Source: Coffea arabica
Taxonomy: Eukaryota > Streptophyta > Magnoliopsida > Gentianales > Rubiaceae
Assembly (NCBI RefSeq): GCF_036785885.1
Contig: NC_092322.1
Coordinates: forward strand, 37,841,994-37,905,993
DNA length: 64,000 nucleotides
Direction of reading: 5' to 3'
The position numbers and the translations under genes are program-made. The notes below the pieces were generated by a model. The model was not told where the DNA came from. It did no database searches and worked only from the letters and a program-made list of their open reading frames with translations. Of the stretch, positions 24,783 through 33,600 are shown piece after piece (position 1 is the stretch's first letter; each line of letters opens with the position of its first letter).

Positions 24783-25632
24783 CTATTCGATCCCAAACAT
24801 CTTCTTCAGAAAAAGGACAGTATCATAAACAGTGTGAGGATCAGAAAGGGACTGGGACACACTCTCCCTCTGCATACAAAATTTGGCCCAAGCCACAAGC
24901 TTTGGACATTGGCTCTCAATCTTGAAGTTTCCACAGGTCTCAAAGGCATAAAACCAACTGTATAGAGGACTAAGAGCCACATACACGAGCCCAAAAGTTT
25001 CACCTCGGTTTTCCCCCAAGTTCTCCTTCCAATATTTTCAGAATCTCTATGAATTCCTTCTTGGCTGCCTCCTGCTCTTCACCTTTTATTGCCCAGATCC
25101 CTCTTGCTGGATCAAAAACCTGCATTTTCTCCATTAGTTAGTCAAATTTGTTTCTTCTTGCATAATGTAACTTTTAGTTATATTCCATTTCACACCTAAC
25201 ATTAGTTAGTCAAAAAATTTTTCTTTTAATTCATGCAGAATCTAACTCCAAAAAGAAGACTTTCTCCGGAAAAAAAAAGAAAAATATAAAATTCACACAG
25301 AAATCTTGCAGGGTACCTTCTTGTCAATAAAGTCAGCCCAGAACCTTGCTTGAGCCCTCTCATAAGGATCAGATGGTTCCAATGGATTCTTGTCATGCCA
25401 TACCTCATCTATGTACTGGACAATTAAGGGACTCAAGTATTGGCTTTCCATTATGAAGCAAAACTGGAACTTTCTTGTGAACAGAATTCATCTCAAGAAG
25501 AAGCAGGCTCTTGTTCGTCAAGTCCTCTTCCTTGAGTTCATACTTGACACCCTTCTCAGCTAGTGCTATTCTGACCCTCATACTGAACATGCTCGCATAG
25601 ACACTCAACAAAATCACCTCTTCACCAGCCAT
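24783..25632 (-). pseudogene. Tau-class GST pseudogene, recently broken
   Basis: Exon 1 is 25632-25317 (start [20 protein letters not shown], with the Ser of the GSTU active site kept) and exon 2 is 25119-24783, ending KKMFGIE. Exon 1 lacks two bases relative to its twin at 58163-57846, next to the EWS-type ESL glutathione-binding motif, which shifts the frame. Exon 2 also has a frame-breaking deletion just after [10 protein letters not shown], where relatives read [17 protein letters not shown] family knowledge: exon 1 encodes the thioredoxin-like glutathione site, exon 2 the helical substrate domain. Confidence 0.88.
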
Positions 25633-26339
25633 TTTCTCAGAGGATGGTACGAAGCAGGAGCAGGAGTTTTCTCTGGTTTGCTAGTTTTTTTTTAAAGAAA
25701 ATTGATGGTTGACCACAAAAGAAGTGTGTACAGATTCCTCTTTTTTTTTAATAGTAGTACATTTAGTCGTCATGGATTTTATTATTTAAGTTGAACGAGT
25801 ACCATGAAATGGTACCGGATCATTCCTGGAACCTTCGAGCTCCACGCCCCAAGTCAGTGAGCTGTTTTTATGAGTTGGTCTAGAGATTTACAGAATTTGT
25901 AAATGAAGTGCACATATTTCACAAGTCAATAACTAAGGAATAAAAGGAAGGGAGATAGTTGAAAAAAAAAATTATCTAAGGAGATGATATGAAATATATG
26001 GGAAAAGAAAGTAGTATCACATTAACATCATTTGGACATTGTACGAACACTCTGCTTAACTAAAGACAGAGACAATTGTCCTATAAATTTGTGGAAGAAA
26101 TTATACATATAAACAGCCTATCCATGAAATCCTAGTAGTAGTAGTAACATCATTTACTACCAGTCCAGGATATCAAGAAGACGACGCTAAATCTCTTTTA
26201 TTCTCCCAAGCCAAGCAAACAAAACTAAAGGATTCTAAGACAGATCTACGAAGCCCACAAAAAGCAAAGCAATCCCAAATACATATTCATGCGTAGACTT
26301 TATTCGATCCTCCATGTAGGCAAAAAGTTGAAAGAGACT

Positions 26340-27254
26340 TTATTCGATCCCAAGCTTCTTCTTCAAGGACACAACAAATTCGTAAATCTTGTGAGGATCA
26401 GCAAGGGACTTGGAAACGCTCTCCCTCTGCATGCATCTTTTGGCCCATTCCACCAGCTTTGGACACTCCGTTTCTGTCTTGAAATTCCCAAAGTTCTCAT
26501 AGGCATGGAACCAACAGTAGAAAGGAATCAAAGCCACATCCACATATCCAAAGTCTTCCCCTCCAAAGTAAGGCTTATTTCCAAGTTCTCCTTCCAATGT
26601 TTTCATAATCCCTATGAATTCCTTCTTGGCTGCCTCCTTTTCTTCTCCCTTTGTGGCCCAGATCCTCCTTCCACAATCATAAACCTGCATTTCACCTTAA
26701 TTTTCTCAGAAAAAAATTGAACAGAAAAATCCCTCCTTAACATAATATTTTTATCCCATATCTAACTTGTCCTGCTTGCTTATGTTGTTTGCCTAAAATA
26801 ATCTAGTGAAAATAGGTTAAGAAATGCTTAGTTCCACGACTAGACGATCTTGGTAAAGACAGTAGAAATGCTTGCCCGAATAACTGATTGAACAGCAGTT
26901 GACAAAATTAGAGTTTCCATAAGAAAAAAATGTTACCTTTTTGTCAACGAAGTCAGCCCAGAACCTAGCTTGAGCTCTCTGGTAAGGATCAGATGGCAGC
27001 AAGGGATTCTTGTCATGCCACACTTCATCTATGTACTGAACAATGATAAGGGACTCGCAAACAGGCTTTCCATTATGAATCAGAACTGGGATTTTCTTGT
27101 GAACAGGGTTCACCTCAAGAAGAAGTGGGCTCTTGTTAGCCAAGTCTTCTTCTTTGTTTTCATACTCGATGCCTTTTTCGGCCAGAGCAACTTGGACTCT
27201 CATGCTAAACATGCTCCCATATGTACCCAACACAACCACCTTGTCACCGGCCAT
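26340..27254 (-). CDS. GSTU: Glutathione S-transferase, tau class (intact, copy A)
   Basis: Two exons, 27254-26937 and 26684-26340, with GT-AG borders and phase 0, encode 220 residues, the usual tau-class length. The N-terminal thioredoxin-like domain has the catalytic Ser14 in YGSMFSMRV, and [12 protein letters not shown] followed by ESL for glutathione binding. The C-terminal helical domain includes [11 protein letters not shown] at the exon join and [20 protein letters not shown]. There is no targeting signal, so it should act in the cytosol. Family knowledge: GSTUs conjugate glutathione to electrophiles such as herbicides and lipid peroxidation products and are usually stress-induced. A TATA box lies ~136 bases upstream. 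The protein is identical to that of 58872-59786. Confidence 0.96.
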
Positions 27255-27389
27255 ATTTTCAGATGATATTCGAGCAAAGCAAAAAAAAAGAAAGGATTTT
27301 TTCGCTAGAGGTGATGAAAAGAAAGCTGAATTATGGGCAATAGTAGCAGTTTGTTAGCAACTAGCAGGTATAAGAACCGGGGTCTTGCA

Positions 27390-30516: not shown

Positions 30517-30534
30517 TGGCGCCGTTGTCGGGAC
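30517..30534 (+). other. Primer-binding site of the Athila element
   Basis: TGGCGCCGTTGTCGGGAC lies six bases after the LTR end. It matches the 3' end of tRNA-Asp apart from one base; the copy at 63112 has the more usual GCCGTTGCCGGGAC. Confidence 0.82.
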
Positions 30535-30639
30535 TGGTGTTAGTTAAATTTGTTTCTTTTTAAGTTCATTTTCGTTTTAATTTTCTGGTACTTTTCTAGT
30601 TTATGCTTTGTTCTTCTCGTACAGGTGAATTAATTTTCG

Positions 30640-33600
30640 ATCCTGAAATAAGGAAAACTGCACGCCGAACATGAAAAGAGACCAGACAGCTCAGAGAAGA
30701 GCAATCTAGTGCTGCATCTCAAAGACTTGATCCAGAAGTTGAAGCAACAAATTCGTTTGGTGATACTTCGAGTGACTCGGATCAAGAAGAAGTCACTATG
30801 GCTAATGCACGAACACTAAGCGTGTTGGCTGCTCCTAATTTAAATCAACAGCCCTTATGCATTACTTTTCCGAATTTAAATGATAACACTCAGTTTGAGT
30901 TAAAATCTGGTCTAATCCATCTTTTGTCATCTTTTCATGATTTATCAAGTAGGAAGCCTCATAAGCACTTGCAAGAATTCGATGTTGTTTGCAACATTAT
31001 GAAACCTTCGAAAATCACGGAAGAACAAATAAAAATGAGGACATTCCCTTTCTCTCTTAAGGATTCAGCAAAAGACTAGTTGTACTACTATCTCCAGGTA
31101 GTATCACCACTTGGGAGAAGCTGAAGAAAAAATTCCTGGAAAAGTATTTTCCTGTATCTCGAACTGCAAGTCTGAGGAAGGAAATATGCGGTATCAAGCA
31201 ACATTCAGGAGAGTCGCTCTATGATTACTGAGAGAGATTTAAGAAGTTATGTATCAAGTGCAGTTGCTCATTCAGTACTTTTACGATGGGCTACTTTTCA
31301 AAGACAAGAATATTATTGATGCTGCAAGTGGAGGGGCGTTGGCGAACAAGACTCCTCGAGAAGCGTAGTTGTTAATTGAAGGAATGACCGAGAACTCATA
31401 ATAATTCGGTATAAGGAAGGATATCTCGATACGCAAAGTGAATGAGATAAAAACATCCTCTATCCAACAGCAGTTATCCGACTTAACATCTTTTGTTATA
31501 CAATTGGCTATAGAAAATGCACCACAAGCCAAGGTGTATGGAATTTGCACTGCCATGGGTCGTTCTATAGAGATGTGATTCAAGAAAAGAGTGCGAAGAA
31601 AGTAAATATAGCTGGTCATATGCCCGCGCCAAGAAAGCCATATGATTCGTACCCTAACATGTACAATCCGGGTTGGAGAGATCACCATAACCTCAATTAT
31701 GGGGGAAATTGACAATCAAATTTTTCACCGAATAGACAGCAAGGGTATCAACAGTAATACCAACCTCGACAGCCACCACTTCCTCCAAATTCAGGCCCGT
31801 CTTTGAAAGAAATGATGAAACAATTAATTGCTAGTCAACAAAAGATGAAATCTGACCTATAAAATATAAGGAATCAAATGGGTCAGATGTAAGCGATACA
31901 GAGTCAGAGTAGTCAGATAGTAATATCAATCAACCGTCTGGAGTCCCAAGTTCACGAAAAATTGCCGTCTCAACCTGAATTGAACCTAAAGAACGTAAGT
32001 GCAATGACCTTAAGGAGTGGAAAGGAAATTCAAGGATTCGAACTCGTGACTCCAAAGGACAAGGATGAAGAAAAGATCGAGAAAGGACTTGAGTCAGAGG
32101 ACATAAATGGCATAAATCCAGTGATACTCCTTAACCCAATCATTGAACTTAAAGCTAATCCGCTTCCCTTTCCTAGTAGGTTGGAGAAACCAAAGAATCA
32201 GGACAAGGAGAAAGAGATCTTGGACGTATTCCGCAAAGTAGAGATCAACATTCCTCTGCTAGATGCAACCAAACAAGTGTCGAAGTATACAAAGTTTTTG
32301 AAGGATTTGTGCATCAACCAAAAAAAATTGAGAGGAGACGAAAGAGTTATTGTGGGGGAGAACGTGTCAGCAGTTCTACAGAAGAAACTTCCACCGAAGT
32401 GCGGAGATCCAAGTATGTTCATTATCCCCTGTAAAATAGGTAATACTTTGATTAGAAATGTCATGTTGGACCTAGGAACATCAGTAATGTCTAAATCTAT
32501 CTATACTTCTTTGAACTTAGGTCCGTTACAAGAAACTAGGATAATAATCAAATTAACTGATCGAACGAATGCTTATCCTGATAGGTTGGTCGATGATGTG
32601 TTGGTTAAAATTCCTAACTGATTTTTATGTACTTAACATAAATAATGATCATTCCCCCGACCATTTACCTTTGCTATTAGGTAGACTCTTTTTGTTCACA
32701 ATCCAAACTAAAATTGATGTTAATAAGGGTACCTTGTCCATGAAATTTGATGAAAAAATTATTCATTTCAATATTTTTGAAACCATGAAATACCCCTCGA
32801 ACTCTAATTTTAACTCTGTTTTTTCTATGAGTGCTATTGACTCAGCGGTGCAGGAAATGTTGAAATTATTGGCAGGGATGAGTTAGAAGTTGTTTTAACC
32901 AAGTACCTCGAGTTAAACACAACTCATGAGGAAGAATTGAGTAAAGATCTGAAAAATACAATTGGAGCATTGCAATCGTTGCCAGTCAAGACGACGAGGT
33001 ATGAGCTCGCACTTATTTTCGTGCCCAAATCTCACCAAAGGGTATTACCGTCTGTGGTGCAGGTACCTGTGTTTGAATTAAAATCTCTGCCAAAGCACTT
33101 GAAATATGCTTACTTGGGCAAGAAGGAAATGCTTCCATTGATTATCTCGACGCGACTGTTGGAAATCCAAGAAAAAAAAATTAATCCAAATTCTTAGAGA
33201 TCACAAGCAAGCAATAGGATGGACTATCACCGACATTAAGGGCATCAGCCTCTCTGTATGTATGCACCGAATAAGGTTCGAAAAAGATGCCAAATCTATA
33301 CGGCAAGTTCAAAAGATGCTCAATCCCCTTATGATGGAAGTGATGAAGAACGAAATACTAAAGCTACTGGATGTGGGGATCATATATGCAATATCAGACA
33401 GCCCATGGATGAGCTCGGTACAGGTAGTTCTAAAGAAAGCAGGAGTGACAGTGGAGGCTAACCAGAAGGGTGAACTCATGCCAATACACAAACCCACTGG
33501 ATAGCGGCAGTGTATCGACTACCAGAAATTAAACGTTATCATGAAAAAAAACCATTTTTCACTTCCTTTTATTGACCAAATGATTGAACGATTAGTTTGT

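Follow-up and report, generated by a model that had tools for sequence, protein, structure and literature searches.

The coffee SH3 resistance-gene cluster is the closest described system, for which nine conversion tracts of 139-1367 bases are listed in C. arabica and C. canephora (PMC3113787). Homoeologous exchange or gene conversion has also been described between the sub-genomes of C. arabica, whose gene divergence is given as 1.3% (PMC5015950). Among the literature matches listed, no title was about the locus considered here, which is a decaying cluster of tau-class glutathione S-transferase (GST) genes in a 64-kb stretch of Coffea arabica DNA (the window; 35.3% G+C, no N). Part of this cluster is present as two copies, A and B, spaced 32.5 kb apart in one sequence. 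The copies are free of substitutions over one tract and are diverged beyond it, and we consider it probable that an older segmental duplication was followed by a recent gene conversion, without crossover, that covered 2.6 kb or more.

The substitution-free tract and its right edge

We aligned 25000-31383 (copy A) globally with 57530-64000 (copy B). The features that the alignment delimits, and the intact gene inside them, are as follows; strand is given where it applies, and the GST genes and remnants are lettered a to e.

25166..27800: substitution-free tract, copy A; GST b exon 1 with part of its intron, and the whole of GST c with its upstream sequence
57695..60341: substitution-free tract, copy B; B positions at the tract ends in the global alignment
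27801..31383: diverged right flank, copy A; 62 substitutions in 3548 columns (1.75%), the far part resembling the start of a long terminal repeat (LTR) retrotransposon
60342..64000: diverged right flank, copy B; ends at the end of the window
26340..27254, minus strand: GST c, copy A; exons 27254-26937 and 26684-26340, GT-AG intron, intact, 220 amino acids
58872..59786, minus strand: GST c, copy B; exons 59786-59469 and 59216-58872, the same 220-amino acid protein

Not a single substitution was found in the 2635 aligned columns of the tract, in agreement with the earlier note, which had seen none by eye over about 2.6 kb around the intact GST gene. The tract differs between the copies by four small indels (2, 1, 7 and 2 bases), the extra bases being always in B: TA at 25424, A at 26145, A7 at 27280 and TT at 27649. 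Two of the four lie inside long homopolymer runs and one is AA versus AAA, while the TA indel at 25424 leaves exon 1 of GST b frame-shifted in copy A. The first substitution to the right of the tract is at 27801. Exactly eight fall within 27801-28290 (27801, 27821, 27837, 27843, 27995, 28043, 28141 and 28274), the number that had been counted earlier for these ~490 bases. Ten columns (28317-28326), with 6 mismatches bordering a 73-base indel, were dropped before counting, and the comparison of 25166-31383 with B then gave 62 substitutions, every one of which falls in the last 3548 of the 6183 aligned columns.

The best change point along the A-B alignment was 27801, where divergence rises from 0 to 1.75%, thereby confirming, on aligned and counted substitutions, the sharp step that had been proposed in place of even divergence. 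When 62 substitutions were placed at random over 6183 columns, the largest free run in 20000 trials was 1279 columns as compared to the 2635 observed; chance does not come near to explaining the step at 27801. At the right-flank rate 46 substitutions would be expected in the tract. The divergence of the tract is below 0.11% (95% limit) versus 1.75% for the flank, and the tract is younger than the flank by at least 15-fold. Gene conversion is recognised by identity far above that of the homologous flanks and by a sharp edge, and both were found here (0/2635 versus 62/3548). Recent tandem duplication should leave an even, low divergence along the copy, whereas we found a step. The 'recent 6-kb duplication' of the earlier note has thus to be given up in that form, since the tract alone is recent and the duplication both predates it and extends beyond it.

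It is extremely improbable that the tract owes its identity to no special event but to constraint or slower mutation. Although it contains an intact gene and the far flank is retrotransposon-like, exons make up only ~980 of its 2635 bases (spliced-gene coordinates), so that ~63% is non-coding, and the ~1.65 kb of non-coding sequence shows no change against ~29 expected at the flank rate, within the 0 versus 46 for the whole tract. The flank changes comprise 47 transitions and 15 transversions, a bias that methylation would favour, but the flank next to the tract (27801-29249; 23/1416 columns, 1.6%) is diverged to a similar degree as the part farther out (29250-31383; 39/2132 columns, 1.8%). 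Methylation as the cause of the step was considered separately and judged insufficient, CpG transitions being just 8 of the 62 changes in a count that did not include CHG and CHH sites.

The substitution rate is even along the right flank (chi-square 8.0, 9 degrees of freedom; longest free run 224), and blastn identity is 96.5% for A 28327-31383. The cut at 29250 is our guess at the start of the retrotransposon, as no LTR edge was found. Since near and far flank are equally diverged, the retrotransposon-like sequence is shared by descent and not by two insertions; independent insertion of the same retrotransposon at the two places was ruled out because the sequence is equally diverged from 27801 onward. 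The right flank shows that both copies arose together and have since diverged by 1.75%.

The far right flank looks like a retrotransposon by its content. The stretch in A at 30520-34623 has a gag-like frame with no Pfam match in the part shared with B and, farther right, an RNase H domain at 34105-34623, and it contains TGGCGCCGTTGTCGGG, which we take to be a primer-binding-like site. Self-comparison of 27001-60000 revealed no second LTR to the right of it. The same flank holds about 83 bases in B (60858-60940) in place of 10 bases in A (28317-28326). The 10 bases of A look like TTTCTTGTTCC, which lies ~70 bases upstream at 28245-28255, and may be copied filler that closed a deletion. In copy B, 63764-63870 matches the plant small nucleolar RNA (snoRNA) R71 in Rfam with a score of 40.8 against a cut-off of 40, probably by chance; copy A is without 22 bases at this site and is not among the Rfam matches.

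GST c, the intact gene in both copies, gives a spliced translation 100% identical over 220 amino acids to P0002, the C. arabica 'probable glutathione S-transferase parC', and 98% identical to the C. eugenioides protein P0004; by these matches the window is Coffea, probably C. arabica. Both GST_N (PF02798) and GST_C (PF00043) were detected above the Pfam cut-off. The best solved chains include GST U25, U20 and U23, and structural relatives are 4top and 2vo4 ('2,4-D inducible glutathione S-transferase'), presumably from soybean. Judged by its two domains and its tau-class relatives, GST c is a tau-class glutathione S-transferase.

The left side of the copies and the fused gene

To the left of the tract the copies are built differently, and a further homologous piece, X, follows beyond unshared sequence.

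20537..21217: piece X, copy A; 3' end of GST e and downstream sequence
56738..57409: piece X, copy B; homologous to A 20537-21217
21218..25165: A-only stretch of 3.95 kb that separates X from the tract; contains pseudogene a, AT-rich tandem repeats (~23.16-24.24 kb) and GST b exon 2
57410..57694, minus strand: B-only, 285 bases; exon 2 piece of another GST (d), without first and last codons
24784..25632, minus strand: pseudogene of GST b in copy A; exon 1 frame-shifted by 2 bases, exon 2 with both a frameshift and a stop
57262..58163, minus strand: fused gene, copy B; b exon 1 (58163-57828), predicted intron 57827-57700 and d exon 2 piece from 57699
21650..22518, minus strand: GST a, degraded pseudogene; broken frames, piecewise protein matches of 35-77%
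56095..56809, plus strand: GST e, pseudogene on the opposite strand; in-frame stops, protein matches 56097-56809, its 3' end starting piece X

The left edge of the tract (25165/57694) is the end of homology, a breakpoint within the intron of GST b. The right end of the aligned blocks (31383/64000) is that of the window and not that of the homology. The 6-kb blocks delimited by the earlier note are thus homologous as claimed, but their limits do not stand as limits of the duplication, the right one being set by the window and the left one being an intron breakpoint with piece X still farther to the left. In X, 20540-20823 carries 6 substitutions in 284 columns (2.1%), while the next 377 columns, up to 21217, have none but contain indels of 1 and 16 bases. 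The probability of so uneven a distribution is 0.006 under even placement, and the substitution-free end of X is no more than suggestive. The diverged homologous sequence on this side (20540-20823) is separated from the tract by the non-homologous A-only and B-only pieces. Against 31384-64000, the A-only sequence (21218-25165) gave just paralogue-level matches of 71-81% (E up to 1e-3). It includes AT-rich tandem and inverted repeats at 23157-24243, with a period of ~390 and shorter, which occur in A only and are absent from B. Collinear left flanks were not found, 1-20536 and 31384-56740 sharing matches of 40 and 28 bases only.

In copy B, b exon 1 is in frame and an open frame spans 57262-57702. 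At 57695 the b intron of B passes straight into exon 2 of a GST resembling the C. arabica protein P0142, so that the fused gene is without the usual exon 2 start; it continues into piece X, lacks its last codons in B and has an aberrant predicted C-terminus (257 amino acids). P0142 is presumably encoded on the same chromosome as P0002, the contigs of the two having equal lengths (40,515,400 bases). The B-only exon 2 piece is 96.8% identical over 95 amino acids to P0142, and 100% identical over 97 amino acids to P0088, 2 of these residues being from the intron side of the junction. P0088 is an annotated C. arabica protein in nr ('parC isoform X1') and stands for 11 members of a 90% cluster, as the listing shows cluster representatives. 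It equals residues 1-209 of B's fused gene except at residue 13, which is P in P0088 and in P0047 (an intact b-like protein) and A in both copies. P0088 has the same right-hand b-d junction together with a complete C-terminal end, and the b-d fusion is therefore not peculiar to this window. No piece of its last 11 residues was found in the six frames of the window; thus, B in its present form does not encode P0088. Among the best 120 of 3730 matches (90% clusters), no Coffea protein was longer than P0088 or covered a B-like aberrant tail, and the truncation of the fused gene by piece X may be peculiar to this window.

These findings bear on an assembly artefact, in which haplotypes or homoeologous (sub-genome) segments were placed in one contig, or polishing made the copies alike, with the step as a mis-join. 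The tract indels are mostly in simple runs, like long-read errors, and 1.75% is near the C. arabica sub-genome divergence (1.3% for genes, PMC5015950). However, the 64 kb contain no N, the blocks do not resemble collinear alleles as far as the window goes, with only the 40- and 28-base matches shared by the left flanks, and the b-d fusion, carried by B and not by A, is present in the public protein P0088 (an nr entry with no source assembly given). Polishing would presumably have evened out the 1.75% flank too, and high homozygosity has been described for C. arabica (PMC5015950). An artefact is thus quite unlikely, and the 'two haplotypes in tandem' of the earlier note are weakened by the first three of these points.

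Order of events

An older duplication followed by gene conversion would have proceeded as follows. Part of the coffee tau-GST cluster would have been duplicated, giving paralogous copies that are now ~1.75% apart in their flanks. Later, non-crossover recombination would have replaced at least 2.6 kb of one copy by the sequence of the other, which served as template for the repair of a break; either copy may have been the donor. On the right the tract stops shortly before 27801, where homology continues, and on the left it reaches the end of homology inside the GST b intron. The left edge would lie there because B already carried the b-d fusion; that b exon 1 had been joined to a foreign exon 2 before the conversion is suggested by P0088. 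After conversion only length changes would have accumulated in the tract, the outcome being two identical intact GST c genes, a dead b in A and a fused, 3'-truncated gene in B. The identical stretch has diverged pieces on either side (the right flank, and on the left 6/284 beyond the unshared sequence), a pattern that a single crossover does not give, while copying with no crossover would account for a stretch younger than its surroundings. Agreement from residue 13 is weak: in exon 1, B sides with A rather than with P0088, whereas B's exon 2 is that of P0088, which is what an overwrite reaching from exon 1 to c would predict, albeit for a single residue.

Of the three options offered by the earlier note, gene conversion across the GST part agrees best with the findings and the other two are less favoured. 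A rival course would dispense with conversion, unequal crossing-over or a later second duplication of the GST b-c unit having set a fresh copy beside an old flank. Clustered GST genes with a fusion and truncations are the usual trace of unequal crossing-over, and one crossover would agree with 27801 being the only clear boundary. The sequence of B to the left of 27801 should then be A-like, but it contains the remainder of gene e and the fused exon 2, and X is diverged by 2.1% in its left part (20540-20823). More steps are required than for conversion, and we regard such serial events as unlikely; 'two successive duplications' are a possible but less economical course.

A single repair event is very unlikely. 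Here a break in B would have been repaired from A, and copying from the two sides would not have spanned the 3.95 kb of A and the AT-rich repeats in it; an exon piece of a third GST would then have closed the gap by template switching, substitution-free tracts abutting both ends of the 285-base piece. This is disfavoured because P0088 has the same right-hand junction with a complete end, and the fusion thus seems older.

Several points weigh against conversion after an older duplication. Only 27801 is a tract boundary inside homology, the left one being the end of homology. Conversion across the A-only/B-only stretch should erase that difference, and the end of piece X, free of substitutions yet with a 16-base indel (the chance of 0.006 being suggestive only), would call for another tract or a subsequent event. 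In length, the main tract is about double the longest one listed for coffee SH3 (PMC3113787). Zero substitutions with four length differences could also come from assembly or polishing errors. The protein evidence on phylogenetic discordance comes down to one residue.

Neighbouring elements and known systems

Two further domains were found in the window. An ATHILA ORF-1 domain is present at 40753-41406, and a FAR1 DNA-binding domain at 15918-16409 is perhaps from a FAR1-related gene or a MULE element.

The process proposed for this locus is an ordinary one in gene clusters, seen here unusually cleanly as copying between adjacent detoxification genes of a perennial crop. If a duplicate is dated by one of its parts, the age may be wrong by a factor of at least 15 (<0.11% versus 1.75%). 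The fused gene, common to B and P0088, is a marker for testing the order of events in coffee accessions.

As compared to clustered tau-class parC-like GST genes, the two-exon gene c is alike and shows no difference, being identical to P0002, while the fused gene departs from them at the start of exon 2 and, in B, at its last codons. The locus resembles the exchange described between C. arabica sub-genomes in the copying between similar partners of one species and in the similar partner divergence; the partners there are on homoeologous chromosomes, whereas the GST copies lie in one sequence (PMC5015950). With the SH3 cluster, as described for Coffea, it shares clustered paralogues, birth and death by duplication and deletion, and tracts copied within the genome (PMC3113787). 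Two of the tracts listed for SH3 are between sub-genomes, and several members were compared there (PMC3113787), in contrast to the GST genes, for which one tract, 2.6 kb long or more, is seen in one pair of copies. Conversion tracts between paralogues are already known in coffee; the proof is weaker here, and the GST tract is longer and belongs to another gene family.

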